Source: Bacteroidetes bacterium GWF2_33_16
GTDB taxonomy: Bacteria; Bacteroidota; Bacteroidia; Bacteroidales; UBA12077
DNA: 64,000 nucleotides
Direction: 5' to 3'
Assembly (NCBI GenBank): GCA_001768565.1
Contig: MEOE01000010.1
Coordinates: 1-64,000, forward strand
In this document: piece after piece, positions 22,991-51,381 of the stretch
Position numbering within the stretch: position 1 is the first letter of the stretch
Layout of the letters: each line of letters begins with the position of its first letter
Made by a program: the position numbers and the translations under genes
The notes under the pieces: model-generated
Databases searched by the model: none
The model's input: the letters and a program-made list of their open reading frames with translations, nothing else
What the model was told of the DNA's origin: nothing

Positions 22991-23000
22991 TATTAATCAA

Positions 23001-26157: not shown

Positions 26158-26180
26158 AAAAAGACGATTTGGTAAAAAAG

Positions 26181-26225
26181 GTGAACTGTGAACAGTTGGA
26201 AGTTTGCAGCTGGAAGGAACCAGTA
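26181..26225. repeat. CAGTT/GAAC-rich degenerate mini-repeat
   Basis: The text gtgaactgtgaacagttgg followed by agtttgcagctgg resembles the non-coding repeat at 2990-3031. It occupies the gap between paralogues 4 and 5. No terminator hairpin is seen here. Confidence 0.4.
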
Positions 26226-26250
26226 ATTTCAATATTCACTATTTACCTTT

Positions 26251-28776: not shown

Positions 28777-28837
28777 GATATTTTATTTTAGTATTGTTAA
28801 AAATTATTTGATAAGTTATAACATCAAAAAACAAAAG

Positions 28838-28855
28838 TCAAATCGTTGGTCAAAT
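28838..28855 (-). promoter_or_regulatory. Shared upstream motif (copy 4), paralogue 5
   Basis: On the minus strand this reads ATTTGACCAACGATTTGA, 62-79 bp upstream of the ATG at 28776. TAACTTAT follows the second TTTG after 20 bp, as expected for a -7 region. Confidence 0.55.
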
Positions 28856-28894
28856 AAGCCACAACTTATATAAAGATCGATTAAAACTAAAAAT

Positions 28895-28934
28895 AAAGGA
28901 CCTGTAAAATACTAATTTACAGGTCCTTTTTTTG
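28895..28934 (-). terminator. Terminator of paralogue 6
   Basis: The perfect stem aaaggacctgtaaa (28895-28908) pairs with tttacaggtccttt (28916-28929) around a 7-nt loop. It lies 28 bp past the stop codon at 28957 and is strong in both directions. Confidence 0.9.
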
Positions 28935-28956
28935 ATAAATTAATTATAATTAGTTG

Positions 28957-31900: not shown

Positions 31901-32556
31901 TTGTTGGCATTAATAACCTGGAATAATGCACCTGTAGCAGATGATTTGACTTCTAATTGGCTGTTTGGATCATTTGTTCCTATACCAACATTTCCAGCAT
32001 TGTAATATAGTTTATTGCCATTTGCTGCCCATTTGCTGCTACCGTAAGGAAAAACAACCTGATTGCCATTGCTTATTTTTAAGGTATCACCTGTTAAGGT
32101 TAAGTTCTGAATTTCATTAGTTGGATTAGCATCTGCGTCATCCTTATTCTCAACATTTTGAGCATATAATGCATAAGGAACAGAAATAAGCTGCACTGTT
32201 CCTAAATCTGTAAATGTTCCGCCAGCAGGATTTGCAATTTCGGTTTTTAAATATATTTGTTGCGACCAGTTTATATTCGTAAAAACTCCTGTAATAATCG
32301 TTCCATTGCCAATTTTTGCTGTATATTGTCCATAATTATTAGTTGATACTGAATGATTCTCTGAGTAAATAACAGTTCCTGTTGAACTCCCTTGCAGTAG
32401 TGAAATTTTTACATTAATAGATGTATTTTTCACCAAATCACCTGATGAATTTCTTAATACTCCCTGATAACTAAATTTCTCAGGAACTTGGCCTATTGAC
32501 TCTAAACATATACAGACAATCACTGTCATCATAATAATAACGATTATTCTTTTCAT
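28957..32556 (-). CDS. Fibre paralogue 6: type B N-domain, very long 17-residue head, S74 chaperone
   Basis: This 1199-residue protein is the largest of the family. The signal peptide is cut ...LESIGQ. The type B domain (VPEKFSYQGVLRNSSGDLVKN ... VPYALYAQNVENKDDADANP) is followed by a GIGTNDPNSQLEV link. Three stalk units lie at about 237-334; the first reads GGFAVSGRTPAK, the only Thr-to-Ala exception in the family. The head (about 345-945) has about 35 repeats of exactly or nearly 17 residues. A 5-repeat (85-residue) superunit is marked by NVFVGNWCG at repeats 9, 14 and 24. The S74 chaperone starts at TSDIRLKDNI (about 1088), with LGLIAQEVQLILPDIV and a coiled coil. The Ser-Asp dyad is intact. 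Confidence 0.93.
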   Translation of the reverse strand: MKRIIVIIMMTVIVCICLESIGQVPEKFSYQGVLRNSSGDLVKNTSINVKISLLQGSSTGTVIYSENHSVSTNNYGQYTAKIGNGTIITGVFTNINWSQQIYLKTEIANPAGGTFTDLGTVQLISVPYALYAQNVENKDDADANPTNEIQNLTLTGDTLKISNGNQVVFPYGSSKWAANGNKLYYNAGNVGIGTNDPNSQLEVKSSATGALFQVINANNDTVFAVYPDGVKVFVDPDAKGKVGGFAVSGRTPAKAGETVEYFRVTPDSTRIYVNDSLGAKGKVGGFAVSGRTPTKGLIKDYLTVNKDSTRIYISDSLDSKGKVGGFAVSGRTPTKNEISKLMDLTKSNYFIGHEAGKSNTEGLYNSFMGFNAGYSNTTGNRNTFLGYYSGYINSVGNSNIFIGDSSGYYNENGYYNIFMGNNSGTSNTIGYQNVFIGNESGYGNINGRYNVFVGQKTGKSNTTGLGNVLIGSTSGYYNTTGLYNVFVGNWCGYYNTTGSRNVFIGNQSGWSNTEGYRNVFIGNESGYSNINGLYNVFIGERSGRSNTEGMNNVAIGATTGISNTTGSSNVFVGNWCGKSNTVGSENVFLGNQSGWNNISGSKNIFLGSFAGYKNEFGSNNIFFGDSSGYTNTTADNNIFIGNKSGFANISGSQNIFLGYKSGYNSESGNSNVFFGNNSGYSNTVGYKNIFIGDSAGYSNYDGRYNVFIGDRVGYANTSGRANVIIGATSGYFNTSGYQNVFVGNWCGYYNTEGFRNVFMGSNTGWNNTIGNHNIFIGSYCGWSNTEGSDNIFFGAYAGASSQTSSSNIFIGNNSGEKNTDGLANVYLGNRTGAENITGSNSTIIGHESGHYNTEGYGNVFLGAYSGYFNTTGYNNVLIGFNAGSNMYYGYDNLIIGNYAADTYILGTQNVILGNYAGRNSTGSGNVFIGNKSGFNEIGSNKLYIENTEVDSSKALIWGNFENNLLRFNGMIGINTHPQNVELSIADTIGSANIYLKGKGDSYSFSRISFGSVETVIKRWDIFHNKLNNFEFAYNDGTSWFNNRLVIGNTGDLTVFGSLYPFADDTSQLGSSSKRWQVVYAIDGAIQTSDIRLKDNIIDIEYGLKHILMLRPVSFDWKDKTNKNKRLGLIAQEVQLILPDIVDVGDDEKQTLGINYSALVPVLTKAIQEQQTEIKSLRSENMELKNQLLDINKRLDKLEK

Positions 32557-32579
32557 ATTTTTAGGATTTTAAAGTATGT

Positions 32580-32605
32580 AACAAATTACAAAAAAGACCT
32601 GAAAA
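32580..32605. repeat. 26-bp intergenic repeat, copy 1
   Basis: This 26-bp sequence, beginning aacaaattacaaaaaagacc and ending tgaaaa, is identical to 37078-37103. It covers the promoter-proximal region of paralogue 6 and the left arm of the terminator of paralogue 7. Confidence 0.8.
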
Positions 32606-32629
32606 TCAAAATTTTGCAGGTCTTTTTTT
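32588..32629 (-). terminator. Terminator of paralogue 7
   Basis: The stem aaaaaagacctg (32590-32601) pairs with caggtctttttt (32617-32628), with possible extra pairing of aaaat/atttt inside. It sits about 25 bp past the stop codon at 32654 and overlaps the promoter region of the next gene. Confidence 0.85.
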
Positions 32630-32653
32630 GATAAAAATTAAATAACTAAATAT

Positions 32654-35200
32654 CTATTTTTCAAGATTTTCGAGGCGCTTAGTTATTTCAAGTAATTGTT
32701 TCTTTAACTCCATATTTTCAAGTATAAGCTCCTGAACTGCCATTAGTGATACACCAGCAACATCAGATGCAGACAGGGCTTTATTTACGTCAACATTTTT
32801 TTTGTCACCTGTACCAAATGCACTATAAAAATCTTCAGAAAATGGTCCAATATGGAACTCCTCAGTATCTTTATAGTACCATCCATTTAATTCTAACCCT
32901 ATTATTCTTGCAAATAACTCGGATTTGTCTATTTCGACAAACCTGTCTTTTAATGTTTTTGACGATGTACTTGTCCAGGTTCCACCACTTGTTAAATATG
33001 CTCCATTTCCATTGGTAGCATCGGTTCCGACCTGAAATGGAAATGAAGTACCAAGTTTATGAAAGGCTATTTTATCATTAGCAAAATCACCATAAATTAG
33101 TGGATTTGTAAACTCTTCAGAGTTCTCTATAATGAGTTTATTGAAAAGTGAAGTTGCTTCATAAGCCACCTTATAACCAATAAGAACATTATTTGAACCA
33201 TTTAGATCAACAGCAGCTTCTGCACCAATAATAACATTATTTTTACTACCACCATTATTGATACCAGAATTACCATAATTGGCTAAATACCCAATCATTA
33301 CATTCGATTCTCCCGACTGATTGCGATTTCCAGATTCAACACCAATATAGACATTCTGAAATCCATTCATATTTTTCGAACCACTTCCTTTACCGATAAA
33401 TGTATTTCTTCCTCCTGTAGTATTGATCTGTCCCGATTCACATCCTAAAAAAGTATTAAACGGAGCATCCTGATTATCACGCCCTGCCTCAGAACCAATA
33501 AATGTATTTGCACTTGCAGTATTTGAATAACCAGCCTGGTATCCAACTAAAACACAATTATCAGCATTTGTGCTTGAAAAACCTGCCTGAAATCCATAAT
33601 AACTATTGTAACGTCCTTTTTGCCATACAGCAGGCAAATTATTTCCAATATTATTATACCCCGATTGATAACCTATAAAAGTATTATATTGTCCAACTGT
33701 GTTCGAAAATCCACTTTTATAGCCAATAAAAATGTTATAATTACCTTCTATATTACTATATCCAGCATTGTATCCAACAAAAGAATTATAGATACCAGTA
33801 GTATTGCTTTTTCCAGATTCGTGACCTATAAAATAATTCAGTTTTGTTAAATCGATAAATTTCTGACCTGCCGTTTTTGTTGGAGTGCGGCCACTTACAG
33901 CAAATCCGCCTACTTTGCCCTTTGTAAGGAAAGTATCGTTTACATAAACACGAGTACTGTCTTGATTTACAAAGAAATACTCATTAGTAAATCCTTTTGT
34001 CGGAGTGCGACCACTCACTGCAAAACCACCAACTTTGCCTTTAGAAGTCAAAGTGTCGTTTATATAAATGCGGGTACTATCTTTATTGATATAAAAATAA
34101 TCCTTAATTACCCCTTTTGTTGGTGTGCGACCACTAACTGCAAAACCGCCGACCTTACCTTTACCATTGTACGAATCGTTTACATATACCCTGGTACTAT
34201 CGGGTGTAACTCTGAAATATTCAACAGTTTCACCTAGTTTTGTAGGGGTACGACCACTTACAGCAAATCCACCAACTTTGCCTTTAGCATCAGGATCGAC
34301 AAATACTTTTACTCCATCAGGATAAACCGCAAAAACTGTATCGTTATTGGCATTTATTACCTGAAATAAGGCTCCTGTAGCCGATGACTTTATTTCGAGC
34401 TTACTTGTTGGATCATTGGTTCCTATACCAACATTTCCAGTATTATAATATAGTTTATTGCCATTTGTTGCCCACTTGCTGCTATCGTAAGGAAAGACAA
34501 CATGGTTTCCATTACTGATTCTTAAGGTATCACCTGTTAATGTTAGGCTTTGTAATTCGTTTGTTGGGTTATTGTCTGCATCATTAACTCCATCCTGTAA
34601 TGGACTCAAATCAACCGTATTTCCTCCTGATATTGAAAGATCAGTATTGGTTAAATTTAATGTTTGATTATCTGTATTAACCCCTGAAAAAGGAGCTAAA
34701 TCAATTGCTGTTGGATTTGTTTTATTTGTAATGGTTAGCGTATTTCCAGTTAGATTCAAATCCTGAATTTCATTTACAGGATCTGCATCGGCATCATCTT
34801 TATTTGCCACATTTTTAGCATACAAGGCATACGGAACAGCAATAAGTTGTGATGTTCCCATATCAACAAACGTTCCGCCAACCGGATTTGCAACTTCAGT
34901 TTTTAAAAAAAATTGTTGCGACCAATCAATGGATGTAAAAACGTTTGTAGCATCTGTTCCTCCACCAATCTGAATTGTAAACTGGCCGTAGTTATTGGTT
35001 GCTACTGCATGATTTTCTGAGTACTGGACTGCACCTGTCGTACTACCTTGTAATAGTGAAACCCGAACTGTAATTGATGTGTTTTTTATCAATTCACCTG
35101 ACGAATTTCTAATAACTCCTTGGTAATTAAATTTCTCTGGTACCTGAGAATAACAGGTAATACTAGAAAACAATAATAGTCCAATTACAATTTTTCTCAT
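32654..35200 (-). CDS. Fibre paralogue 7: type B N-domain, 17-residue head, S74-variant cap
   Basis: This 848-residue protein has a signal peptide (cut ...ITCYSQ), the type B domain, and three Asp-rich 'DADxDPxNELQ' units with 'LSISGGNTVDLSPLQDG' (about 140-230). Four GGFAVSGRTPTK units follow (about 302-440), all KGKVGG. The head is short, with about 13 repeats of the 17-residue type. The cap begins TSSKTLKDRFVEI (about 747), then GPFSEDFYSAFGTGDKK and DVAGVSLMAVQEL, ending in a coiled coil. This is the second S74-like class found in fibre proteins. It lacks the Asp after Ser and the 'GFIAQEV' signature. The stalk is nearly identical in protein sequence to that of paralogue 13, 18 kb away, while head repeats and caps differ. 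Confidence 0.92.
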   Translation of the reverse strand: MRKIVIGLLLFSSITCYSQVPEKFNYQGVIRNSSGELIKNTSITVRVSLLQGSTTGAVQYSENHAVATNNYGQFTIQIGGGTDATNVFTSIDWSQQFFLKTEVANPVGGTFVDMGTSQLIAVPYALYAKNVANKDDADADPVNEIQDLNLTGNTLTITNKTNPTAIDLAPFSGVNTDNQTLNLTNTDLSISGGNTVDLSPLQDGVNDADNNPTNELQSLTLTGDTLRISNGNHVVFPYDSSKWATNGNKLYYNTGNVGIGTNDPTSKLEIKSSATGALFQVINANNDTVFAVYPDGVKVFVDPDAKGKVGGFAVSGRTPTKLGETVEYFRVTPDSTRVYVNDSYNGKGKVGGFAVSGRTPTKGVIKDYFYINKDSTRIYINDTLTSKGKVGGFAVSGRTPTKGFTNEYFFVNQDSTRVYVNDTFLTKGKVGGFAVSGRTPTKTAGQKFIDLTKLNYFIGHESGKSNTTGIYNSFVGYNAGYSNIEGNYNIFIGYKSGFSNTVGQYNTFIGYQSGYNNIGNNLPAVWQKGRYNSYYGFQAGFSSTNADNCVLVGYQAGYSNTASANTFIGSEAGRDNQDAPFNTFLGCESGQINTTGGRNTFIGKGSGSKNMNGFQNVYIGVESGNRNQSGESNVMIGYLANYGNSGINNGGSKNNVIIGAEAAVDLNGSNNVLIGYKVAYEATSLFNKLIIENSEEFTNPLIYGDFANDKIAFHKLGTSFPFQVGTDATNGNGAYLTSGGTWTSTSSKTLKDRFVEIDKSELFARIIGLELNGWYYKDTEEFHIGPFSEDFYSAFGTGDKKNVDVNKALSASDVAGVSLMAVQELILENMELKKQLLEITKRLENLEK

Positions 35201-35226
35201 TTTATATTTTTTTTTAAATAATATAT

Positions 35227-35234
35227 CGAAGATA
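35227..35234 (-). promoter_or_regulatory. -7 box of paralogue 7
   Basis: TATCTTCG on the minus strand, 27 bp upstream of the ATG, is close to the consensus TAnnTTTG. The box directly follows the terminator of the next gene. The same box and context (cgaagata...actgccag) recur at 40110-40117. Confidence 0.5.
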
Positions 35235-35275
35235 AAAAAACTGCCAGAAAATTATAACTATCTGACAGTTTTTTG
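35234..35275 (-). terminator. Terminator of paralogue 8
   Basis: The arms aaaaaactg (35235-35243) and cagttttt (35266-35273) pair, with further partial pairing of ccaga/tctga inside. It lies about 43 bp past the stop codon at 35318 and abuts the promoter box of paralogue 7. Confidence 0.7.
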
Positions 35276-35317
35276 TTTAAACTATTTTAAAAATAAATTA
35301 ATCATCAACCAAAAAGT

Positions 35318-37054
35318 CTACCAGGTTACAAAAGATTTCCAAATAGCACCGGTATAAATATATAAACCATCAGGATTCGTTGAATGGCCTTTTAATCGTA
35401 TAATATCTCCTTCACCCGGTGATGCAGGATAAGTACTCATACTTCCAAGATTAAGTATTTTATTAATGTTTACCATATCTTTTGAAAAATCACCATAAAT
35501 GAGAGGTGTTGATGTATTTGAATTATCTATAATAAGTAAATTAGAACCCGTTGCGGTTCCTCCGGCATTATATCCTAAAAAAACATTTCCAGAACCTGTT
35601 GCATTATATCCGGCACCATTTCCGATCATTGTGTTATTTGGTCCATTTTTCTGATAGCCACCTGCTTTATTTCCTATAAGCACATTTCCAATCGTTGTAT
35701 CATTGCTTGCACCACTACCTTCGCCAATATAAATATTGTCATATCCTTTTGTATTATTCATTCCGGCAGCATTACCAACAAAAACATTATTGTTACAAAT
35801 CGTGCTTTTCCATCCCGCAAGCGGACCTATAAAAACATTGTTACTACCGTTTGATAATTCTTTTCCTGATTCAACTCCAATAAAAACATTGTTTGTTGAG
35901 CCTGCACTTGATGCCCCGGAACGGTATCCGATATAAACATTATTCCAGCCTGTTGTATTACCTCTTCCACTTTGATATCCAAGAAAGGTATTATAGTGAG
36001 CAAACCGTGAATCAAGACCACCAATATTGCTGTAACCACTCTCAAATCCTAAAAAAACATTGTAATTTCCATTATTTTCATAACCTGCCCACGAACCGAT
36101 CATAACATTCTCATTTCCTTTTTGCGAAAGCATACCAGATTTGTAGCCTAAAAAAAGGTTGTTTGTACCTGTGGTATTTATTCCACTTTCATGTCCAATA
36201 AAATAATTATCTTTAAAAAGATTTAGCAAACTATTAACGCTTTCTTTTGTTGGAGTACGTCCGCTAACAGCAAACCCTCCTATATTTCCTTTTGTACTGG
36301 TATTAAAAGTTACACGCGTACTATCTGGAGTTACAAATAAATAATCTTTTACAATCCCTTTTGTAGGAGTGCGTCCGCTAACTGCAAATCCTCCCACTGC
36401 ACCCTTGAAATTGGATGTGTCATTAACATATATCCTTGTGCTATCAAGTGTAACTCTAAAATAATCTTCTTCGATAGCTTTTGTTGGTGTACGGCCACTT
36501 ACTGCAAAACCGCCGACTGCGCCTTTTGAACCTTGGTCAACAATTACTTTTACACCATCAGGAAAAACAGCAAAAATAACATTTCCTTGTCGATCCTTTA
36601 CTGCAAACAAGGTGTCATTGTCAGTAAGATAAATTGTACTCTTATCAAGTGTTTTTGCTTTACCAGAATAAAGCGAATAGGGAACAGAAATTAATTGAAT
36701 TGTTCCCATATCAATAAATGTTCCTCCTGCAGGATTAGCAATTTCGGTTTTAAGATAAATCTCTTCTGACCAGTCGATTGCAAAATAATTTCCTGACTGA
36801 GCAACTCCATTGCCTACCCTCACAGCAAACTGACCATAGCTATTTGTATTTATTGAATGAGTTTCAGAATATAGCTCAGTAATTGTCACTCCTGGTTTTA
36901 TTAAAGAAGTTCTGACATTTATTGCTGTGTTTTTAACTAGTTCTCCTGATGAATTTCGTAAAACACCTTGGTAATTAAAGGTCTGTGAACCTTGGCCAAT
37001 TGCATTCAACGAGAAGTACATTGCCCAAATGCAAAAAACAAGTTTTCTTTTCAT
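35318..37054 (-). CDS. Fibre paralogue 8: type B N-domain, short 17-residue head, no chaperone
   Basis: This 578-residue protein is the smallest intact member. The signal peptide is cut ...NAIGQ. A type B domain ends VPYSLYSGKAKTLDKSTIYL. Instead of Asp-rich units there is a 'DTLFAVKDRQGNVIFAVFPDG' strand pair. Three GGFAVSGRTPTK units follow (about 175-270; after KG: A, A, N). The head has about 13 repeats of the 17-residue type. The protein ends in a short segment, TYPASPGEGDIIRLKGHS ... GLYIYTGAIWKSFVTW, a 'label-like' cap common in Bacteroidota repeat proteins. No S74 domain or coiled coil is present. Positions 36642-36751 are identical to 42141-42250 in paralogue 10, which has the other head and an S74 cap. 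Confidence 0.92.
   Translation of the reverse strand: MKRKLVFCIWAMYFSLNAIGQGSQTFNYQGVLRNSSGELVKNTAINVRTSLIKPGVTITELYSETHSINTNSYGQFAVRVGNGVAQSGNYFAIDWSEEIYLKTEIANPAGGTFIDMGTIQLISVPYSLYSGKAKTLDKSTIYLTDNDTLFAVKDRQGNVIFAVFPDGVKVIVDQGSKGAVGGFAVSGRTPTKAIEEDYFRVTLDSTRIYVNDTSNFKGAVGGFAVSGRTPTKGIVKDYLFVTPDSTRVTFNTSTKGNIGGFAVSGRTPTKESVNSLLNLFKDNYFIGHESGINTTGTNNLFLGYKSGMLSQKGNENVMIGSWAGYENNGNYNVFLGFESGYSNIGGLDSRFAHYNTFLGYQSGRGNTTGWNNVYIGYRSGASSAGSTNNVFIGVESGKELSNGSNNVFIGPLAGWKSTICNNNVFVGNAAGMNNTKGYDNIYIGEGSGASNDTTIGNVLIGNKAGGYQKNGPNNTMIGNGAGYNATGSGNVFLGYNAGGTATGSNLLIIDNSNTSTPLIYGDFSKDMVNINKILNLGSMSTYPASPGEGDIIRLKGHSTNPDGLYIYTGAIWKSFVTW
36642..36751. repeat. 110-bp identical tract shared by paralogues 8 and 10, copy 1
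   Basis: All 110 bases match 42141-42250 in the same orientation by direct comparison. The bases on either side differ (tactc|ttatcaag versus tacta|ttatcaag; cggtttt|aag versus cggtttt|tat). The tract codes for the end of the type B domain (...GTFIDMGTIQLISVPYSLYS...). Confidence 0.9.
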
Positions 37055-37077
37055 TGCAATAGTTATTTAAAAGTACC

Positions 37078-37103
37078 AACAAATTACAAAAAAGACCTGA
37101 AAA
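37078..37103. repeat. 26-bp intergenic repeat, copy 2
   Basis: This is identical to 32580-32605. It covers the region 24-49 bp upstream of the ATG of paralogue 8 and the left arm of the terminator of paralogue 9. Confidence 0.8.
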
Positions 37104-37127
37104 ATAATTATTTTTCAGATCTTTTTG
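37088..37127 (-). terminator. Terminator of paralogue 9
   Basis: The arms aaaaaagacctgaaaaat and atttttcagatcttttt pair over about 17 bp with one mismatch. It lies about 23 bp past the stop codon at 37150. A short A-run follows on the minus-strand reading. Confidence 0.85.
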
Positions 37128-37149
37128 ATCAACTAACTCCTTTTAAATT

Positions 37150-40089
37150 TTATTTTTTAAGATTTTCAAGAAAAGACTTTATTTCGTTAATTTGCTTTCT
37201 GAGCAAATTATTTTCTTCCCTTATCAGTTCAATTTCTGATTGCTGTTTGCTTATTATATCCTGGTTTTCCTTCTTTAATTCAATAATCTGAAGTTGAAGG
37301 TTCTCTACTGTTTCAAGGGTTTCGAATTGCATTCGGGTTAGGTTTACCCCATTTTTCTCATCTTTTGCAGAAGTTATCCAAGGTAGATGTCCATTGGTTT
37401 TGATAAATTCTTCAACTTTTATGGGTTCTAAATAGCTGTTGTATTCTGGTTTAAATACATAGTCAGGTTTAGTATATTTTGTTATACTAGGGCTTGCACC
37501 ATAAAAAATATCTCCAGTAATTCTTGCATCACCCTCAACATGTAGTTTTTTATCGGGAGCCTTTGTTCCGATACCGATTCTCCCATCTTTTAATACTGTT
37601 AATGCGTTTGACCTAGCGTTGTCGGATAAACCATTTCCAATAATGAAAAGGGGATCAGCCGAAACCCATGCAGTAGATGAGTTAGAGGTTGTGTCGTTAA
37701 ACATACCAACTACCAAACTAGCGTATGAGTTTGCTTTTACTTGAGATCCAATTACAGTAGAAAAAGACCCGCTTGCTATAGAAGAAAATCCCATAGCTGT
37801 AGCATTTAATCCGCTGGCAGTTGTAGCATTTCCTATGGTTGTTGAAAAAATTCCACTTGCATATGTATAATTTCCCAGCGCTAATGAGGACGCTCCGTCA
37901 GCAGTACTAAAAGATCCGATGGCTATGGAATGATTTCCGTTTGCCCAAAGTTTTCTCCCTATAGTAGTTGAAAAATCTCCAATCGCGGTTGTTTCAAATC
38001 CCAAAGCTGTAGCACATAATCCAGTGGCCCTTGTCGCGTTTCCCAAGGTTGTAGAAAATACTCCTGAAGCTACAGTATAGTTTCCTAATGCAAATGAACT
38101 GGGACCGCTGGCAGTATTTTCCAATCCAAAAGCAAAAGAATTATGTGCACTGGCGGTTGTTCCTTTTCCAATAGCTATTGAATTATTACCTTGTGCTTTA
38201 TTACCCCGACCTATTGCAATGGAATAGTCTTCTGCGGCTATATTGGCAGAACCAAAAGCGAAAGAAAGTTTCCCAGTAGCCTGAGAGCTCATTCCGAAAG
38301 CGTATGAATAATCTCCACTTGCAACTGTTGGACCTGTTATTGAACCGTATTCATCGATACCGAATGAACCCATCGCAAAACTATTTTTTCCCGATGCATT
38401 CGCATGAGAACCTAAGGCGTATGAATTTTCTCCATTGGAAATAGCTGAATCGCCAAATGCAAACGAATTCAAACCCTGAGTCTGTGCATAATTACCAAAT
38501 GCAAATGAATTGCTTGAATTGGCTATAGCATTATTCCCTATTGCCGTTGAATTCAATCCTAACGATTGTGCTTCATATCCCATTGCCTGTGAATAATTAC
38601 CCATAGCAATAGTTCTATAACCCAATGATGTAGAATTGGTTCCAACACTATCGGCTGAACCAATATGTACTTCACCAGCCAGAAATGCAGCTTTCACAGG
38701 ATACCATAATATTCGTGCTTCACTTTCAATTGATTCCAATTTCTTATTTCCCGAAATATTAAAATAATCATTTATATCGCCCTGTTTTGTAGGTGTTCGG
38801 CCACTTACTGCAAAACCTCCTACTTTTCCTTTGGATGATATAGAATCACTAATATATATTCGGGTACTATCTTTGTTAACCGTAAAATAGTCTTTTGTAC
38901 CACCCTTGGTTGGTGTTCGGCCACTTACTGCAAAACCACCTACTTTACCCTTTGCCCCTATGGAATCATTGACATAAATACGAGTACTATCGGGTGTAAC
39001 CCTAAAATATTCAACTTTGCCACCTAATTTTGTTGGAGTACGACCACTCACTGCAAATCCGCCAACAGTTCCTTTTGAGTCCGAATCTACAAACACTTTA
39101 ACTCCATCTGGATAAACTGCAAAAACGGTATCATTATTGGCATTAATTACCTGGAATAAAGCACCTGTCGTACTGGTTGATTTAACTTCAAGCTTACTTG
39201 TTGGATCAGATGATCCAATTCCAATGTTTCCTGTATTATAAAATAATTTATTTCCATTAACTGACCAGCGACTACTATCATATGGAAATACGACCTGATT
39301 TCCATTGCTTATCTTAAGAGTATCTCCTGTTAATATAAGGTTTTGCAATTCGTTTGCCGAACTTATATCTAAATCAATAGGAAGTTTTACAAAACCTCCA
39401 TTGGACAAATAAATAGAATCATTAGATATTGATATTGCCTGAAGTTCATTTGTTGGATCTGCATCAGCATCTGTATAACCATCCTGAATTGTAACCAGAT
39501 TAACCATATTTCCTCCTGTAATACTCAATTCTGTACCCAATAAATTTAGGTTTTGATTATCGGTATTGGTTCCGGCATAGGGAGCTAAATCAATGGCTGT
39601 AGCGCCTGAATTGTTAGTTATTTTTAATGTATTGCCTGTTAAATTCAGGTCTTGTATCTCATTAGAAGGATCTGCATCAGCATCATCTTTATTTTCTACA
39701 TTTTTTGCATACAAAGCATACGGAACAGACAAAAGCTGCACCGTTCCCATATCTACAAATGTGCCACCAGCAGGATTTGCAACTTCGGTTTTTATGAACA
39801 TTAATTGCGACCAGTCAATTGTTGTATATGAACCAGAAATTAATGTTCCGGCACCTACAAATACATTAAACTGACCATAATTGTTCGTACTCACAGAATG
39901 ATTTTCTGAGTATTGAATTGTACCTGAAGAACTACCTTGCAGTAAGTATATTTTAACTGTAATGGAGGCATTTTTTACTAAATCTCCTGAAGAATTCCTT
40001 AGTAATCCCTGATAATTAAATTTGTCAGGTACCTGAGAAAAAGAAGTTATACTAATGAATAAAAACAATCCGATTATAAATTTTTTCAT
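37150..40089 (-). CDS. Fibre paralogue 9: type B N-domain, YadA-like head, coiled-coil tail
   Basis: This 979-residue protein has a signal peptide (cut ...ITSFSQ), the type B domain, and four Asp-rich 'DADADPxNE(I/L)Q' units (about 140-260). Three GGFAVSGRTPTK units follow (about 335-435; after KG: T, K, K). The YadA junction is DYFNISG ... RILWYPVKAAFLAGEV. The head of 14-residue repeats is long (about 470-800), with 'ASGVFSTTLGNATxATGLCATALGF'-type units repeated. The tail from about 870 is not S74. It reads KPDYVFKPEYNSYLEPIKVEEF..NGHLPW and ends in a long coiled coil, a common C-terminus of Bacteroidota head-repeat proteins. The AIG-rich head and D-rich neck suggest a trimeric stalk-and-head fibre. 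Confidence 0.92.
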   Translation of the reverse strand: MKKFIIGLFLFISITSFSQVPDKFNYQGLLRNSSGDLVKNASITVKIYLLQGSSSGTIQYSENHSVSTNNYGQFNVFVGAGTLISGSYTTIDWSQLMFIKTEVANPAGGTFVDMGTVQLLSVPYALYAKNVENKDDADADPSNEIQDLNLTGNTLKITNNSGATAIDLAPYAGTNTDNQNLNLLGTELSITGGNMVNLVTIQDGYTDADADPTNELQAISISNDSIYLSNGGFVKLPIDLDISSANELQNLILTGDTLKISNGNQVVFPYDSSRWSVNGNKLFYNTGNIGIGSSDPTSKLEVKSTSTTGALFQVINANNDTVFAVYPDGVKVFVDSDSKGTVGGFAVSGRTPTKLGGKVEYFRVTPDSTRIYVNDSIGAKGKVGGFAVSGRTPTKGGTKDYFTVNKDSTRIYISDSISSKGKVGGFAVSGRTPTKQGDINDYFNISGNKKLESIESEARILWYPVKAAFLAGEVHIGSADSVGTNSTSLGYRTIAMGNYSQAMGYEAQSLGLNSTAIGNNAIANSSNSFAFGNYAQTQGLNSFAFGDSAISNGENSYALGSHANASGKNSFAMGSFGIDEYGSITGPTVASGDYSYAFGMSSQATGKLSFAFGSANIAAEDYSIAIGRGNKAQGNNSIAIGKGTTASAHNSFAFGLENTASGPSSFALGNYTVASGVFSTTLGNATRATGLCATALGFETTAIGDFSTTIGRKLWANGNHSIAIGSFSTADGASSLALGNYTYASGIFSTTIGNATTASGLNATAMGFSSIASGSFSTVIGSQVKANSYASLVVGMFNDTTSNSSTAWVSADPLFIIGNGLSDNARSNALTVLKDGRIGIGTKAPDKKLHVEGDARITGDIFYGASPSITKYTKPDYVFKPEYNSYLEPIKVEEFIKTNGHLPWITSAKDEKNGVNLTRMQFETLETVENLQLQIIELKKENQDIISKQQSEIELIREENNLLRKQINEIKSFLENLKK

Positions 40090-40109
40090 AATTTAATTTT
40101 AAATGATCT

Positions 40110-40117
40110 CGAAGATA
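40110..40117 (-). promoter_or_regulatory. -7 box of paralogue 9
   Basis: TATCTTCG on the minus strand, 21 bp upstream of the ATG at 40089. The surrounding sequence (tcgaagataaaa.aactgccaga) matches that at 35226-35248, so the promoter/terminator junction was duplicated. Confidence 0.5.
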
Positions 40118-40121
40118 AAAC

Positions 40122-40154
40122 AACTGCCAGATATTAAATCAATATCTGGCAGTT
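40122..40154 (-). terminator. Terminator of paralogue 10
   Basis: The perfect stem aactgccagatatt (40122-40135) pairs with aatatctggcagtt (40141-40154) around a 5-nt loop. On the minus strand it is followed by GTTTTATC. It lies 24 bp past the stop codon at 40178. Confidence 0.85.
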
Positions 40155-40177
40155 ATTTAATAAAGTATGTTTTTAAA

Positions 40178-42553
40178 CTACTTTTTAAGTATACTCATAA
40201 CTTCGTTTAATTGGTTTTGAAGATGAATAACCTGTTTTTCAAGATCCTGAACTTTTTTATGCTCTTCTTTTAAAGCCTCAACTAAAAGCGATGTAACAGG
40301 AGCATATTGAATTGAATAATTTGTTTGCTCATTACCTACAACGACTTCGGGTAAAACACCTATAACTTCCTGTGCAATAAACCCAATCTGTTTTTCGCTG
40401 CTGGATGGATCATTCCAATCAAAGGTAACACCTCTAAGCTTAAGAACTTTATCCAAAGCCCCATCAATTGTTTCTATATTTTTCTTCAATCTGCCATCGC
40501 TATCACTTGCCCAAGCCTGGTTACCGCCAGCTTTTCCATGTACATAAAACTTGTAACCTGCGTCACGTTTTGTTTTTACTGATGCATTATATCTTGTATC
40601 AGGATTGGTTATTGTATTATCACCAGGTACACCAGCCCAACCTATAACAGTAGTGCCATCTTTTAATATTGTTAATGCATTTCTACGTCCTACCAAAGGA
40701 TGACTTGATCCATTTCCCAAAACAAACAATGGATCATCTTCGTACCAATCAATATATGAAAAAGGTGTAGTATTATCATAATAATTAATATCCCTGTGAC
40801 TATAAATTGTATCATTTGATCTGCCAAGCACAATAGAACGGTATGAATGAGCCATCACACCTTCACCTGCAGCAGTTGTATTATAGCCAACAGCTTCTGC
40901 ACCCAGCCATGCGGTATTTTCATTACGATGTGCTTTTGAACCCCATCCCCATGCTGTGGAACCATAACCTGTGGCTTTAGAATAATGGCCCCATGCAGTA
41001 GAACCAAAACCCGAAGCAACTGTATAATCTCCAAAAGCTGTGCTATTGTTACCCGAAGCTACAGTACCACTTCCAAAAGCTGTAGCAGCATCACCAGAAG
41101 CAGTATTTGTAAGTTCCAGATTTGTAAATCGAGCTCCTCCCCAGGTCATTGATGAACGACCACTGGCTGTGTTTCTATATCCCAGAGCAATTGCGTAACG
41201 ACCGCTGGCAATTGTTCCAAACCCCATAGCTGTGGAATTATCACCTGTAATGGTGGTTGTAGTTCCTGTCCCAATTGAAAATGAATTTAAACCATATGAT
41301 TTAGCACCCAATCCCATTGCAAATGAGTATTGTCCCAATGCTTCTGTTGATATTGCTAACGAAACACCTGTTGAGTCGCGTCCACCAGCTCCAAAAGCAA
41401 AACTTCCGTTTGCAGTAGCAATAGCACCGTTTCCAAAGGCATAACTACCCGATCCGGCTGCAAATGCATTTCGACCAATTGCATAAGAATTAGATGATGT
41501 AGATCCGGTTGAAGCCCCATCTCCAATAGCATAGGTACCTGCTCCTCTCGCAATTGCATTATTACCAAATGCAAATGAATTTAACCCTTTTGCAATGACA
41601 TTTCTCCCAATTGCTGTTGAATAATCGTTTCGGGTTATGGCCTGGTAACCTAATGCCTGCGACCAATCACCAATAGCCTTAGATTCGTAACCAATAGCCA
41701 TTGAGTTTGTTCCAATGCTATCAGCTGATTCTATTAATACTCGACCCGCTAAAAATGCTTCCTTTCTTGGATACCAGACAATTCTTGCTTCACTGGGATT
41801 AATAATTTCAATATTCTGATATCCCGAAATATTAAAATAATTAGCAGATTGCTTTTCTTTTGTTGGTGTGCGGCCACTTACAGCAAAACCACCTACCGAT
41901 CCCTTTGTAGAAGCTGTATCATTAATATAAATTATTGTACTGTCCAAGGTTACCCTAAAATAATCCTCCTCCAAGGCCTTGGTTGGTGTGCGGCCACTAA
42001 CAGCGAAGCCTCCCACAGATCCTTTTGTAACTTGATTAACAATTACTTTTACACCATCCGGAAAAACAGCAAAAATCACATTTCCCTGACGATCCTTTAC
42101 GGCAAACAAGGTATCGTTGTCGGTAAGATAAATCGTACTATTATCAAGTGTTTTTGCTTTACCAGAATAAAGCGAATAGGGAACAGAAATTAATTGAATT
42201 GTTCCCATATCAATAAATGTTCCTCCTGCAGGATTAGCAATTTCGGTTTTTATATACATTTCTGTTGACCAATCGATATCTGAAAAACTACCTGTAAATA
42301 TGCTTCCGGCTCCTACCTTTACTGAAAATTGTCCAAAATTGTTTGTAGTAACGGAGTGATTTTCAGAATACATTAAAGTATCAGTAGAGTTTCCCTGCAG
42401 CAGAGATAATTTAACAGTTACACTTGTATTTTTTACTAGTTCTCCGGAGGAATTTCTAATTACTCCCTGATAATTAAACTTTTCTGGAACTTGCGAAAAC
42501 AAGCTCATCGAAGTTAAAACACCAATAATTAAAAGCAGAATTTTTGTTTTCAT
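40178..42553 (-). CDS. Fibre paralogue 10: type B N-domain, YadA-like head, S74 chaperone
   Basis: This 791-residue protein has a signal peptide (cut ...SMSLFSQ). Its type B domain shares the tract described at 42141-42250 with paralogue 8. It has only two GGFAVSGRTPTK units (about 174-189, 215-230), both KGSVGG. The YadA junction is YFNISG ... RIVWYPRKEAFLAGRV. The head (about 265-570) has 14-residue repeats, including an unusual run of Trp-containing units ('GSTAWGHYSKATGYGSTAWGWGSKA'). The S74 chaperone starts at SDSDGRLKKNIETI (about 686), with IGFIAQEVIGVLPEVV and a coiled coil. The Ser-Asp dyad is present. The gene is monocistronic with its own terminator. Confidence 0.92.
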   Translation of the reverse strand: MKTKILLLIIGVLTSMSLFSQVPEKFNYQGVIRNSSGELVKNTSVTVKLSLLQGNSTDTLMYSENHSVTTNNFGQFSVKVGAGSIFTGSFSDIDWSTEMYIKTEIANPAGGTFIDMGTIQLISVPYSLYSGKAKTLDNSTIYLTDNDTLFAVKDRQGNVIFAVFPDGVKVIVNQVTKGSVGGFAVSGRTPTKALEEDYFRVTLDSTIIYINDTASTKGSVGGFAVSGRTPTKEKQSANYFNISGYQNIEIINPSEARIVWYPRKEAFLAGRVLIESADSIGTNSMAIGYESKAIGDWSQALGYQAITRNDYSTAIGRNVIAKGLNSFAFGNNAIARGAGTYAIGDGASTGSTSSNSYAIGRNAFAAGSGSYAFGNGAIATANGSFAFGAGGRDSTGVSLAISTEALGQYSFAMGLGAKSYGLNSFSIGTGTTTTITGDNSTAMGFGTIASGRYAIALGYRNTASGRSSMTWGGARFTNLELTNTASGDAATAFGSGTVASGNNSTAFGDYTVASGFGSTAWGHYSKATGYGSTAWGWGSKAHRNENTAWLGAEAVGYNTTAAGEGVMAHSYRSIVLGRSNDTIYSHRDINYYDNTTPFSYIDWYEDDPLFVLGNGSSHPLVGRRNALTILKDGTTVIGWAGVPGDNTITNPDTRYNASVKTKRDAGYKFYVHGKAGGNQAWASDSDGRLKKNIETIDGALDKVLKLRGVTFDWNDPSSSEKQIGFIAQEVIGVLPEVVVGNEQTNYSIQYAPVTSLLVEALKEEHKKVQDLEKQVIHLQNQLNEVMSILKK
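42141..42250. repeat. 110-bp identical tract shared by paralogues 8 and 10, copy 2
   Basis: This is identical over 110 bases to 36642-36751. Upstream and downstream sequence diverges at once, including within codons of otherwise conserved residues. The pattern fits gene conversion or a short recombination tract. Confidence 0.9.
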
Positions 42554-42599
42554 ATTTAATAATTTTATAACCTTACCATGATAACGGTTATAAAATTAC

Positions 42600-42634
42600 A
42601 AAAAAAAAAGAAAGCGAATGCTTCCTTTTTAAAC
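42600..42634 (-). terminator. Terminator of paralogue 11
   Basis: The stem aaagaaagc pairs with gcttccttt around gaat (about 42607-42629), with an A-run of ten bases on the left that gives a strong U-tract on the minus strand. It lies about 25 bp past the stop codon at 42658. Confidence 0.75.
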
Positions 42635-42657
42635 AATCATTTTATCCTATACAATTC

Positions 42658-45633
42658 TTACTTATTTTCAAGTTTAGTTATTCGTTCAAGTAATTGTTGA
42701 TTTAAGATATTTAGCTTTTCAATCTGGTTTTGCTGTTCTTTAACCGCTTCAACTAAAACAGCTGTCATCTCTGCATAGTTAACCCCAAAATATCCATCTG
42801 TGGGATTTACAAATACAAGCTCGGGCAATACTTTCTGAACTTCTTGTGCAATAAATCCTATTTTGGTTGTTGTATTTTCATCAGATTTCCAGTTAAAATT
42901 TACTCCCCGAAGCTGCAAAACTTTGTTTAATCCATTGGAAAGAGTTGTAACATTCTCTTTTAACCGTATATCAGAGGTTGCAGTAGTAAGAGTACCATCA
43001 GCCGTTCTATTTACAGGCCCCAAATATATACCTGATGCAATAGCCCTTATTCTAGCATTACCATTAACATCGAGCATTTCTATTGGAGCATCGTGCCCAA
43101 TAGCAACCTTGCCATTTTTGAGAATTGTAAACGCATTTGCTCTTGCTGCCGTAGAAGATCCATTGCCAATTACAAATATTGGATCTGATACAAGCCAATT
43201 TGAATTATTTCCGGCAATTATATTGTATCTACCTATTACCATTGATAAGTATGATTGAGCGGTTGTCTCCATTCCAAAAGTTGCTGTTCCAAAAGTAGTG
43301 GCAACTGTTTTATATCCTGTTGCAAATGAATATGAACCACTTGAAGTAGATTGAGATCCTGCAGCCAAAGATGCAAAACCGCTGGCCAATGTTGCATATC
43401 CAATAGAGAATGCACCTTGTCCGCTAGCTTTTGTTTGGTCGTTGGCCGAAAATGATGCTACACCCGAAGCTTTTGTCCATCTTCCGGTTGCTAGTGCAAC
43501 ATTTCCAGAAGCAGTGTCCTGATAACCAATTGCAATTGCGTCGTTAAATGTTGCTATTGAACCATTTCCAATAGTTATCGTATTTAATGCACTTGAAGTG
43601 GAACTATTACCTAATGAAATTGAATAGGCACCAGTAGCATTGGTATTATATCCCAAGGCCATTGAATAATCAGCTGTTGATTCGTTATTTGCCCCCAAAG
43701 ATGTTGCTCCCGGACCACTCGATGTGTTATTATAGCCAATTGCAGTTGAAATATTTCCACTTGCAGTGTTAGATCTTCCGATTGAAACAGCTGTTGTCCC
43801 TGTAGCAGTTGTTCTTTCGCCTAAAGCAACAGCAAACCACCCATTAGATGTGGTGGCTCTAAATCCAATGGCAGTAGAATAAATTGATCCGGCGACACTT
43901 TCAAATCCCAAAGCAGTTGCACCATTTGCAGTAACAGAGCTTTTATATCCAATAGCGGTTCCTGCCCAGTTAAAAGATTTACATTGATAACCCAAGGTAA
44001 GTGAATAATCACCGGCTGTTGTATCCTGTGTTCCAATGGCAAAGGCACCTTTTTTTGTTGCTACTGATCCCATCCCAAAAGCATAAGAATAATTACCTGT
44101 TGCTTTCGTTGCCGAAGTGGCAACACCCATTGAGTCAACACCAGTGGAACCAATAGCAAAACTTCGTAAACCTTTTGCCAGAGCTGCTGTTCCAATTGCA
44201 TATGAACCACTATCCTGCGCAACTGAATAGTTTCCAAAAGCATAAGATTCATTCCCAATAGCATTAGCCCTATTTCCAATCGCGGTAGAATTTTTTCCTT
44301 TTGCACGTGCTGCATATCCTAATGCTTGCGAATAATCACCTATTGACTTACTTTCAAAGCCTGTAGCCATTGAGTTTGTTCCAACACTATCTGGACTCTC
44401 AATTAAAATCCTACCAGTTAAGAAAGCTTCTTTTTTTGGATACCAAAGTATTCTTGGTTCACTACCAACTGTTTCAACTACTGAACTACCTGAAATATTA
44501 AAATAATCATTCGTAGAACTCAATTTTGTTGGTGTTCTTCCACTAACAGCAAATCCTCCTACCGATCCTTTTGAAGCAGAAGAAATAGAATCGTTTATAT
44601 AAACCCTTGTGCTATCTCCATTTATAAATAAATAATCCTTATTATTTCCTTTTGTAGGAGTACGGCCGCTAACAGCAAATCCACCAACAGAACCCTTCGA
44701 TGATAAAGTATCATTAATGTAGATTCGTGTGCTATCATATGTAACTCTAAAGTAATCAACTTTTGCACCTGCTTTTGTTGGAGTTCTACCACTTACAGCA
44801 AAGCCACCAACACTGCCTTTGGCAGAAGGATCAACAAACACTTTTACTCCATCAGGGTAAACGGCAAAAACAGTATCATTATTGGCATTTATTACCTGAA
44901 AAAGAGCTCCAGTGCCCGATGATTTTACTTCAAGCTTACTTGTTGGGTCAGAGGTACCAATACCTACATTACCTGTGTTAAAATATAATTTGTTGCCATT
45001 TGTTGCCCATTTGCTGCTATCATAAGGAAATACAACCTGGTTTCCATTACTGATTCTTAAAGTATCACCAATTAACATAAGGTTCTGCAATTCATTTGTG
45101 GGATTAGCATCTGCATCATTTACCTGATCAATTGGTAATTTAATAAAACCGCCGTTACTTAAATAAATTGTATCGTTTGATATAGTTAAGATTTGTATTT
45201 CATTTGCAGGATCGGCATCTGCATCATCCTTATTTCCAACATTTTTTGCATAAAGTGCATAGGGAACTGTTAACAATTGTACTGAGCCCATATCTGTAAA
45301 CGCACCATCAGCAGGGTATGCAATTTCTGTTTTCAAATACATTTCAGTTGACCAATCAATACTAGAAAAACTACCTGAAAGCAAAGTCCCTGCTCCTATA
45401 TTTACTGAAAATTGACCAAAATTAGTTGTAGTAGTTGTATGACCTTCAGAATACTTCAAAGAACCAGTAGCGCTTCCCTGTAATAGCGAAACCTTAATAA
45501 TTACATTCGTGTTCCTTACTAAATCACCAGAGGAATTTCTAATTACTCCCTGATAATTAAATAACTCTTGTATTTGAGAATACCCAAAATTGAATATAAC
45601 TGCTAAGAGCAATGTAAATATTAGTTTTTTCAT
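42658..45633 (-). CDS. Fibre paralogue 11: type B N-domain, YadA-like head, S74 chaperone
   Basis: This is a 991-residue protein. The frame opens further upstream (to 45723), but the ATG at 45631-45633 gives a proper signal peptide (MKKLIFTLLLAVIFNFGYSQ) and is chosen as the start. The type B domain and two Asp-rich units precede three GGFAVSGRTPTK units (about 270-370), all KGSVGG. The Ser of KGSVGG is coded TCG, TCT and AGT in the three units. The YadA junction is DYFNISG ... RILWYPKKEAFLTGRI. A long 14-residue-repeat head (about 410-790) follows. The S74 chaperone starts at TSDIRLKENVTTL (about 889), with IGFIAQEVQKVLPELV and a coiled coil. The cap matches that of paralogue 4 closely. Confidence 0.92.
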   Translation of the reverse strand: MKKLIFTLLLAVIFNFGYSQIQELFNYQGVIRNSSGDLVRNTNVIIKVSLLQGSATGSLKYSEGHTTTTTNFGQFSVNIGAGTLLSGSFSSIDWSTEMYLKTEIAYPADGAFTDMGSVQLLTVPYALYAKNVGNKDDADADPANEIQILTISNDTIYLSNGGFIKLPIDQVNDADANPTNELQNLMLIGDTLRISNGNQVVFPYDSSKWATNGNKLYFNTGNVGIGTSDPTSKLEVKSSGTGALFQVINANNDTVFAVYPDGVKVFVDPSAKGSVGGFAVSGRTPTKAGAKVDYFRVTYDSTRIYINDTLSSKGSVGGFAVSGRTPTKGNNKDYLFINGDSTRVYINDSISSASKGSVGGFAVSGRTPTKLSSTNDYFNISGSSVVETVGSEPRILWYPKKEAFLTGRILIESPDSVGTNSMATGFESKSIGDYSQALGYAARAKGKNSTAIGNRANAIGNESYAFGNYSVAQDSGSYAIGTAALAKGLRSFAIGSTGVDSMGVATSATKATGNYSYAFGMGSVATKKGAFAIGTQDTTAGDYSLTLGYQCKSFNWAGTAIGYKSSVTANGATALGFESVAGSIYSTAIGFRATTSNGWFAVALGERTTATGTTAVSIGRSNTASGNISTAIGYNNTSSGPGATSLGANNESTADYSMALGYNTNATGAYSISLGNSSTSSALNTITIGNGSIATFNDAIAIGYQDTASGNVALATGRWTKASGVASFSANDQTKASGQGAFSIGYATLASGFASLAAGSQSTSSGSYSFATGYKTVATTFGTATFGMETTAQSYLSMVIGRYNIIAGNNSNWLVSDPIFVIGNGSSTAARANAFTILKNGKVAIGHDAPIEMLDVNGNARIRAIASGIYLGPVNRTADGTLTTATSDIRLKENVTTLSNGLNKVLQLRGVNFNWKSDENTTTKIGFIAQEVQKVLPELVFVNPTDGYFGVNYAEMTAVLVEAVKEQQNQIEKLNILNQQLLERITKLENK

Positions 45634-45764
45634 CTTATTAGGTTTAATTGGATTAATTTTAAATAAGACAAAATAAATCGAATTCGGTTCACCTAATTGT
45701 ATTATTTTTAAAGGCCAACTCACTTTTAATTTTTATTGCTATAAATAAGATAGTTATACTATTT

Positions 45765-48362
45765 CTATTTTGTTCTTTTAACTGGTTTTTTTATTGGTTT
45801 TATTACATCTTTTTTAGGAGGAACAAGTTTCCACGTAAATCTGCCAACTTCTGTTCCTTCAAGCATCTGCCTTACAGCAATTGTATAGTTTCGATTTTTA
45901 AATTTCTCTGGAATATGAAGAAATAAGTTTAAAGGGGTCTTGGAATTAGCTCTGAATTGGATATTTTCTAATTTTGATTCTCCTAAGGGTTTTATAGGAG
46001 CAAATCCAACTTTTCTCTTTTTATTATGCAACACATAAGGAGATCCCTTAAATACTGTTTTTTTCCATACTATAGGAATTTGTAGTAAAACCTTTACATC
46101 TTTTGGAAGTTTAGAAATCACCTCAAGGCTCATTCTTTGGTCTCTATCAGGTAATCCGGGAGAAAAGAAATCAAGCCTTAACCAGCCTTTTTTAGGCAAT
46201 CCGTTTTGTCCTGGTGTTGGTTCATTATTATTAATAGGATCTTCTTCCTGAATTGGATCTGGATCAGGAGCTTGGACATTTTCAGGTTCTTCGTCTGGAA
46301 CAGGGCTTGTTGAGCTTTTCTTCATTTCAACAATATCGAAGTTTTTCCATGTTACATTATTATTCTCACGTATATATCTACAATATTTGTCCCAATCCCA
46401 GTCTGGAATATTTCTTGGATCTGGTCCGGGATCTTCATCAGAATTTACAACAGCCACAAAACAATAATGACCGGTAGCACTTGTAGGTGTCCATTCTAAC
46501 TTATTACTCACAGTAAGAATTTCGCCGATTGGTATAGGATAAGGAAAATCGGTTTCTCCAATATAATTCATAAGCGAAGGTGTAATAAGTGTTGAAGGAA
46601 CAGAATAAAAAGCATGTACTTTAGCATTTGTTGGTTCTGCACCTCCCTGATTCAAAATTCGGAAGTATAAATAATTAATCTGATCTTTTGTTGCATTCTC
46701 GCTTAAGTCATCTCTGTTTCGGTTTGTAACATTTAGTTCTCCATACTCAGCTTGTGGATCAGTTACTTCGCTTGTTCTGTTTATTACATCAGGGCTCCAT
46801 GAAATAAACCCCGCATGAGGTAATCCTTCATCACCAATAAAATCGCGTAAATAGATATCTGGCAATAAGTTTAAACTTTGTGATGTAAATTTCTGCAGAT
46901 CTGGCATGTATATTTCTAAGGTTTCATAAATAGAACCAGTAATATGGTTTGATAATTGAGTCCCATTAATTGAATTGCGAAGAATTTTTCTAATTTGCCC
47001 TGGACTAAATCTATAACCCTGATTGGCAACAGCTAGACTTTGCATCTGTAAAACTACTCCTGCAATTATCGCAGCGGCTCCTGAAGTTCCTCCAAATAAA
47101 TTTGGCTCATCGGTATAAGTACCTGTCGCACCTAGCGAATCAGACGATAACGTTTTAATACCTTCGCCCCATGCATAGCAATCTATACGGTCGCCAAAAG
47201 GAGCCCATGGCATTTTTGCATGAGTAGTTTCATAACCCGCCTGAGAGCAAAGTGATGATTGTGCTGCTGTTACAATAATTGCTCCTGAATCCTTAAAATC
47301 TGGGTTTGGGTCAGCAACTGTTGATGGTTTTAAAATGACTTTTCCTCCTACTTCAAAATCAGTAAAATTAACACAAGAAGTAACACCATCCCCATTTCCT
47401 CCGGGTTCAATAACAATTATTCCTAATGCAGTTGCAAGTCTAATGGCTTCATATTCCAGGTTATTTATTTCAATTGGAACATCGCAAGGTGTACCTGAAT
47501 ACTCTGCTGAAGTGGTTGCTTCAATTAGAAGAACATCTCCAAAACTTAAATATTCTAAACTTTTTAAAATAGCATTGGCAACAGTATCACCAAAATGTGA
47601 AATAACATTCATATTCGAATTTGGAGCTATTCCAATACAACCAATTCCATTATCTTTTGCACCAACAATTCCTATTACAGAAGTACCATGCGCGCGATTT
47701 GCATCATCATTAGAGCCCCATAATAAGTTCGTTAATGGTAAATTTAAGTCTACATGATCTAAGGTCCATCCAGTTTCAATATCGATAAAATTAATACCTG
47801 CACCATCGTCACCGACAAGTGAACTGTCCCAAACAGTTTTTGCAGAAATCCCATCTGGAGCGGCATCTAAATATTTTTGGTATGGATCCTCAGGTAAATT
47901 AGCATATATCTCATCTGTATATGATACTGCTGGTTGTGAATATTTTTTCAATATGCTTGATGATTTTATATTTTTCCATTTTGCCAGATCCTCAATAATT
48001 GATTGGGGATTTATTTCAACTGGACATATAATTTTAAAATACTGAAAGAAGTTACCATCTTTATATGAAGAATCCATCTCTTTGGCTTTAGCAACTAATT
48101 TCATTAATTTTTCCGGTTTAATACTAGTAAATAAAGGACTAATAGCAATACCGGGATATTTTTTAATTAATTGCTCCCAGTCACCAACCTGGAAATCTTT
48201 AATATATTTTGAGACATCAGAACTATAGGGTAATTTAATATGGTCGTGAAAACGCACCACAAGTTGAGTTCTGTAATCATGTCTTAAGAGGGTTGATCTT
48301 TTATTTGTTCTTCTCTTTTTTTCTCTAGTAGATACTTTTTTAAGGTTTACATTTGTTTTCAT
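45765..48362 (-). CDS. Subtilisin-family (S8) serine protease inside the fibre array
   Basis: This 865-residue protein has the S8 catalytic triad: Asp in INFIDIETGW (about 195), His in RAHGTSVIG (about 224), Ser in FGGTSGAAA (about 426). The oxyanion Asn lies in EPGGNGDG. Long regions flank the domain: an N-terminal part of about 170 residues, a C-terminal part with 'PDIYLRDFIGDEG', and an acidic Pro/Glu/Asp linker (about 690-730) before a last beta domain and a basic tail (KKPVKRTK). The N-terminus is strongly basic (KREKKRRTNKRS-like) with no hydrophobic segment, so no signal peptide is visible and no T9SS domain is present. Its place between paralogues 11 and 12 suggests a link to the fibres. 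A processing role is only inference. Confidence 0.88.
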   Translation of the reverse strand: MKTNVNLKKVSTREKKRRTNKRSTLLRHDYRTQLVVRFHDHIKLPYSSDVSKYIKDFQVGDWEQLIKKYPGIAISPLFTSIKPEKLMKLVAKAKEMDSSYKDGNFFQYFKIICPVEINPQSIIEDLAKWKNIKSSSILKKYSQPAVSYTDEIYANLPEDPYQKYLDAAPDGISAKTVWDSSLVGDDGAGINFIDIETGWTLDHVDLNLPLTNLLWGSNDDANRAHGTSVIGIVGAKDNGIGCIGIAPNSNMNVISHFGDTVANAILKSLEYLSFGDVLLIEATTSAEYSGTPCDVPIEINNLEYEAIRLATALGIIVIEPGGNGDGVTSCVNFTDFEVGGKVILKPSTVADPNPDFKDSGAIIVTAAQSSLCSQAGYETTHAKMPWAPFGDRIDCYAWGEGIKTLSSDSLGATGTYTDEPNLFGGTSGAAAIIAGVVLQMQSLAVANQGYRFSPGQIRKILRNSINGTQLSNHITGSIYETLEIYMPDLQKFTSQSLNLLPDIYLRDFIGDEGLPHAGFISWSPDVINRTSEVTDPQAEYGELNVTNRNRDDLSENATKDQINYLYFRILNQGGAEPTNAKVHAFYSVPSTLITPSLMNYIGETDFPYPIPIGEILTVSNKLEWTPTSATGHYCFVAVVNSDEDPGPDPRNIPDWDWDKYCRYIRENNNVTWKNFDIVEMKKSSTSPVPDEEPENVQAPDPDPIQEEDPINNNEPTPGQNGLPKKGWLRLDFFSPGLPDRDQRMSLEVISKLPKDVKVLLQIPIVWKKTVFKGSPYVLHNKKRKVGFAPIKPLGESKLENIQFRANSKTPLNLFLHIPEKFKNRNYTIAVRQMLEGTEVGRFTWKLVPPKKDVIKPIKKPVKRTK

Positions 48363-48433
48363 TTAATTTTCTTTTTGGGTTACTGTAATTTGTTTAATAA
48401 TATCAATTCAAATAATTATCATTACGATTGAAA

Positions 48434-51289: not shown

Positions 51290-51308
51290 TGAATTTAAAA
51301 TTAATGAA

Positions 51309-51339
51309 TAAAGATAACGTTTTATATACTAATAATCAA
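51309..51339 (-). promoter_or_regulatory. Promoter of paralogue 12
   Basis: On the minus strand TTG (51337-51339) is followed after 20 bp by TATCTTTA (51309-51316), close to the Bacteroidota pattern TTG-N19-21-TAnnTTTG. The box ends 20 bp upstream of the ATG. Confidence 0.6.
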
Positions 51340-51381
51340 GAGGAATTATTAATCGTAAGAACTTAAAAATAATCGCATAAG

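Follow-up and report, generated by a model that had tools for sequence, protein, structure and literature searches.

A 110-bp identical tract in two diverged fibre genes of a Bacteroidales bacterium as the probable footprint of recent ectopic gene conversion

How two otherwise diverged genes came to share 110 identical base pairs is the question raised by a locus on contig MEOE01000010.1 of the Bacteroidetes bacterium GWF2_33_16, of which a 64-kb stretch (positions 1 to 64,000, hereafter the window) was analysed. The two genes, here called A and B, belong to a cluster of fibre genes on the minus strand (Table 1), and three further fibre genes are found on contig 14 of the same genome. Among the 13 fibre genes of the window and these three, each of the two N-terminal domain types is found with each of the two head classes, and 7 of the 16 carry, near the C-terminal end, an S74 domain that bears the SDxxxK motif. 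Pfam detected S74 (PF13884) in B and in gene 6 and YadA head repeats (PF05658) in B, whose head matches YadA_head and solved trimeric adhesins. In most of these proteins a glutamine follows the signal peptide, a feature that PMC5837995 describes for Bacteroidota.

Table 1. Positions of the fibre genes, the identical tract and the adjoining segments in the window.
Feature	Position	Strand	Description
Fibre cluster	15225..54555	(-)	13 fibre genes plus an S8 protease gene; N-terminal domains of two types, heads of two classes
Gene A, 578 aa	35318..37054	(-)	type-1 N-terminal domain, 3 GGFAVSGR stalk repeats, 'FIGxxSG' head, non-S74 end
Gene 9 ('paralogue 9' of the earlier note), 979 aa	37150..40089	(-)	between the direct tract copies
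Gene B, 791 aa	40178..42553	(-)	type-1 N-terminal domain, 2 stalk repeats, YadA head, S74 chaperone with SDxxxK motif
Gene 11, 991 aa	42658..45633	(-)	nearest relative of B's N-terminal domain
Identical tract, copy in A	36642..36751	(-)	codons 102-138; covers the final two strands of the N-terminal domain and the first part of the linker
Identical tract, copy in B	42141..42250	(-)	codons 102-138, as in A
Older A-B affinity adjoining the tract, in A	36522..36638	(-)	codons about 139-177; 88% to B, <=73% to other genes compared
Linker segment of B	42021..42137	(-)	sister to A in segment tree (100/98)
N-terminal domain of B	42251..42490	(-)	codons 22-101; sister to gene 11 in segment tree (99/94)

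Exact-repeat comparison showed that the two copies of the tract were identical at all 110 bp, at the very coordinates given in the earlier note, and could be extended by zero bases on either side. The runner-up among the exact repeats of the window (k>=25) was 38 bp long, and in the whole genome perfect copies were confined to A and B, the next best matches (84% and 83% identical) lying on contig 14. In both genes the tract occupied nucleotides 304-413 of the coding sequence and was thus in register. The heads downstream were, as had been claimed, of different classes: B carries YadA_head and S74, and A lacks both. No close strain or relative bearing the tract was found in the genus, nor was one found in viral contigs; a scan of genome contigs returned distant fibres only, one of them from a Bacteroidetes MAG, and the nearest copy in a genus-mate was only 72% identical across about 510 bp.

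A and B aligned without gaps over codons 1-232, with differences at 184 of the 696 sites. None of the 35 informative codons in the tract carried a silent difference, compared with 62 of the 130 (48%) outside it (P about 1e-10; 1e-8 to 3e-5 with stricter regional rates), in agreement with the earlier note's statement that homologous segments elsewhere mostly differ at silent sites. The same note had called for an alignment of the two genes with a conversion test: when the aligned sites were shuffled, runs of at least 110 bp arose in 0 of 100,000 shuffles (largest 60), a result that favours conversion, and a further permutation of A and B gave 0 of 60,000. Even under the harsh bound that the whole alignment is as similar as its best flank, the probability of a maximal run of at least 110 bp was about 1e-4. 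Silent change was mildly reduced in the tract columns whichever pair was compared: in within-genome pairs from the genus these codons differed silently in 40% of cases, and those of the N-terminal flank in 48.5%. With this rate of the family's own for the tract columns, the probability of 0 of 35 was 1.5e-8, and other gene pairs differed silently at the tract codons in roughly 30-45% of cases. Because these codons are only mildly slow in other pairs, constraint alone fails to explain the lack of silent changes. Equal identity over the whole pair, which the earlier note held would speak against conversion, was not seen; silent divergence was zero within the tract and 47-65% in the N-terminal flank and the stalk, with a step at both tract ends.

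The flanks were said to diverge immediately, which is accurate base by base and incomplete in that they are homologous and asymmetric, with 27 of 60 nucleotides differing on the N-terminal side of the tract and 8 of 60 on the other. On this 3' side, A and B remained 88% identical through codons 139-178 (about 40 codons) before identity dropped to 71% in the stalk. The recent tract therefore forms the edge of an older segment that A and B share. Segment trees were built on the 35 genes that share the N-terminal type of A and B. In the tree of codons 22-101, B grouped with its neighbour on the other side, gene 11 (support 99/94), and in the tree of codons 139-178 with A (100/98), where the grouping of B with gene 11 was rejected (p 3e-7); for the N-terminal segment a grouping of A with B was disfavoured, short of formal rejection (p 0.11). 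With gene 11 as its company on one side and A on the other, B is a mosaic whose breakpoint lies close to where the tract begins, and such a conflict between segment trees is what recombination predicts.

A second cluster with three fibre genes was observed on contig 14 (G000 contig 14, 62585-69713, L069), where it has a 70-bp shared tract of its own at the same codons. Two of its genes, h1 and h2, are identical over 70 bp at codons 107-129, where the tract of A and B also lies, with silent differences at 4 of 31 codons in the tract region compared with about 40% around it. In the tract, about 17% of positions separate h1 and h2 from A and B (A versus h1, 83% identity). That A equals B and h1 nearly equals h2 while the pairs differ from each other points to exchange within pairs and argues against a conserved DNA element.

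This pair-specific identity bears most directly on the idea that selection on the DNA itself, acting on a regulatory site, an RNA element, an overlapping gene or codon usage, has kept the tract identical. The somewhat lower silent change at the tract codons in all pairs and the low GC3 of the tract (0.11) would fit such selection, but h1 and h2 hold their own version of the tract, and Rfam returned one tRNA only, far from it; we regard this explanation as very improbable. Common ancestry through a recent partial duplication, with the tract as the slowest-changing piece, is also improbable, if less so. It would account for the linker at codons 139-178, in which A and B are sisters, and the tract region is conserved at the protein level across the family; however, a duplicate does not readily show a step in silent divergence at both tract ends, from zero to the values of the N-terminal flank and stalk, and for its N-terminal domain B has gene 11 rather than A as its sister.

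Could the identity have been made by the assembler, through the merging of two slightly different copies? Contigs of several genus-mates do end inside these genes (11 of the 81 family genes in the genus are cut by contig ends), one of them on an exact 77-bp repeat. With two direct copies, nevertheless, the assembly graph would offer a single full path; the flanks are diverged, and merging could mask a few mismatches at most, not make 110 bp of identity between flanks that are 60-88% identical, so that an artefact, too, is quite improbable. Least probable of all is site-specific cassette switching of the shufflon kind with the tract as recombination site. The constant N-termini and variable heads resemble such systems, whose hallmarks are short recombination sites, cassettes in inverted orientation and a recombinase encoded close by, but every gene of the cluster has the same orientation, no recombinase gene was recognised when the open reading frames of the window were read, and the shared tracts of relatives lie at varying codons (35-57, 107-129, 200-253).

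An internal run of identity far above the divergence of the pair, in register, free of silent change, enclosed by diverged homologous sequence and placed where segment trees conflict, was very probably left by a recent ectopic gene conversion, that is, homologous recombination, between A and B, as the earlier note had proposed. We infer that the event was recent, that it used the RecA pathway and that it was a non-reciprocal rather than a reciprocal exchange. The length of the tract fits published bacterial conversion tracts, which have a median of 101 bp and an interquartile range of 33-244 bp (PMC13061034). The paralogous PE/PPE genes of Mycobacterium tuberculosis offer a parallel (PMC13061034), with short in-register tracts of that median length between diverged paralogues at distances of 1 kb and more and at a frequency that falls with divergence; there events can be placed on a strain tree, whereas here, with one genome per species, they are deduced from footprints at silent sites. 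As to direction, two indirect arguments point opposite ways: the tract of A is closer to the rest of the family than its flanks would lead one to expect (z 1.8, the second highest of 35; z 0.3 for B), a hint of transfer from B to A, and the A-like linker in a B with a gene-11-like N-terminal domain fits transfer from A to B equally well.

By the mechanism that we propose, the adjoining linker would first have been exchanged, or inherited in common, at an earlier time, and homologous recombination, probably RecA-dependent, would then have copied a stretch of about 110 bp, located where the N-terminal domain ends, from one gene to the other. The same process, acting now and then across the fibre family, would homogenise the shared N-terminal and stalk modules while the heads stay different, and in principle conversion or recombination could join old N-termini to new heads. 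The geometry for such a product is present at the locus. The tract copies lie in direct orientation 5,499 bp apart (3 x 1,833) and at the same codon position, bearing out the earlier note's estimate of about 5.5 kb and the geometry behind its suggestion that paralogue 9 could be lost. A crossover between them is predicted to delete 5,499 bp including gene 9 and, given the direct copies, the multiple of three and the shared codon position, to yield an in-frame fusion of B's N-terminus to A's head.

To see A and B among their relatives, 81 fibre genes from 12 members of the genus were surveyed and 334 pairs tested. The strongest signal was that of A and B, and pairs in G010, G006, G017 and G003 had permutation p values of 2e-4 to 1e-3; a handful of pairs thus stand out, of which A/B and the G010 pair alone clearly survived strict correction over the 334 tests. 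In G008, two adjacent genes were nearly identical over codons 20-210 and differed in their signal peptides and heads; this pair (L108, G008:C92, genes 1796-3787 and 3936-6266) is a larger and clearer mosaic than A/B. Across the survey the longest tracts lay in N-terminal or stalk modules. Exact runs of at least 60 bp were found in 8 of 98 near pairs and in 1 of 243 others (p 2.6e-4). An effect of proximity on shared tracts disappeared once overall identity was allowed for (p 0.14), and the excess of long tracts in near pairs is accordingly explained by overall similarity. One contig of G010 (C73, L095) starts at position 1 with an exact 77-bp repeat of a neighbouring fibre gene, which is probably a k-mer break in the assembly. 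The present genome is assembled in 36 contigs, and in related assemblies contig ends frequently fall within these genes, so that a number of exchanges may escape notice.

The fibres resemble the mosaic adhesive trimer (MAT) proteins of Bdellovibrio bacteriovorus (PMC10769870). In these the signal peptide is followed by a conserved N-terminal domain, rich in beta structure and about 110-130 aa long; they have long repeats, variable tips and S74 or non-S74 ends and form a large set of paralogues, and tip swapping has been proposed as their route to diversity. The NCBIfam profile Bdello_MAT_N (NF053851) matched the N-terminal domains at 28-40 bits (best 39.5 bits, E 1.2e-9), below its curated cut-off of 60 bits; it matched at 11 places in this genome and at none in 14 control genomes, and in a sample of the phylum 30 of 118 genomes had matches, none above the cut-off. 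When modelled alone, the N-terminal domain had seven beta strands (pLDDT 82); a model of residues 1-260 was poor (pLDDT 48). This beta-rich domain stands straight after the signal peptide, with no PDB relative by fold at E<=0.001 or by sequence at E<=1, and the fibres fall into S74 (SDxxxK) and non-S74 subgroups. They differ from MAT proteins in the GGFAVSGR stalk repeats, the YadA-type heads and the sub-threshold N-terminal domain, and predation, trimer formation or surface display would be conjecture for them. Layout and distant sequence similarity suggest a likeness to MAT, and family membership is not claimed. YadA-type trimeric autotransporters share the head repeats seen in B, but Pfam found no YadA membrane anchor in the genes scanned, whose C-termini are S74 chaperones or others.

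Gene conversion is an ordinary, known kind of event; the family in which it is seen here is little described. The tract of A and B provides a clean, statistically firm case of recombination within a large modular family of putative surface fibres, points to exchange in the N-terminal and stalk modules that these genes share rather than in the heads, and shows how a family related to the prey-recognition fibres of Bdellovibrio may stay mosaic. If crossovers occur there too, a new fibre could arise from an existing anchor and an existing head. It is conceivable, though on balance doubtful, that a widespread MAT-like fibre family exists outside Bdellovibrio in which recurrent conversion keeps modules interchangeable and crossovers swap heads between neighbours; this would supply a working mechanism for the 'tip swapping' so far just proposed for MAT proteins.

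Three other features were observed in and around the cluster. The S8 protease gene within it (45765-48362, minus strand) is of the subtilase type. Adjoining the cluster, a gene at 7435-15177 (minus strand) codes for a 2580-aa repeat protein with many 'SSPTNNSSIPITITFSE'-type units, as read by eye from the translation. Beside the cluster, at 54879-55439 (minus strand), lies a decayed copy of the fibre N-terminal domain, interrupted by ten in-frame stops, which is a relic of a lost fibre gene.
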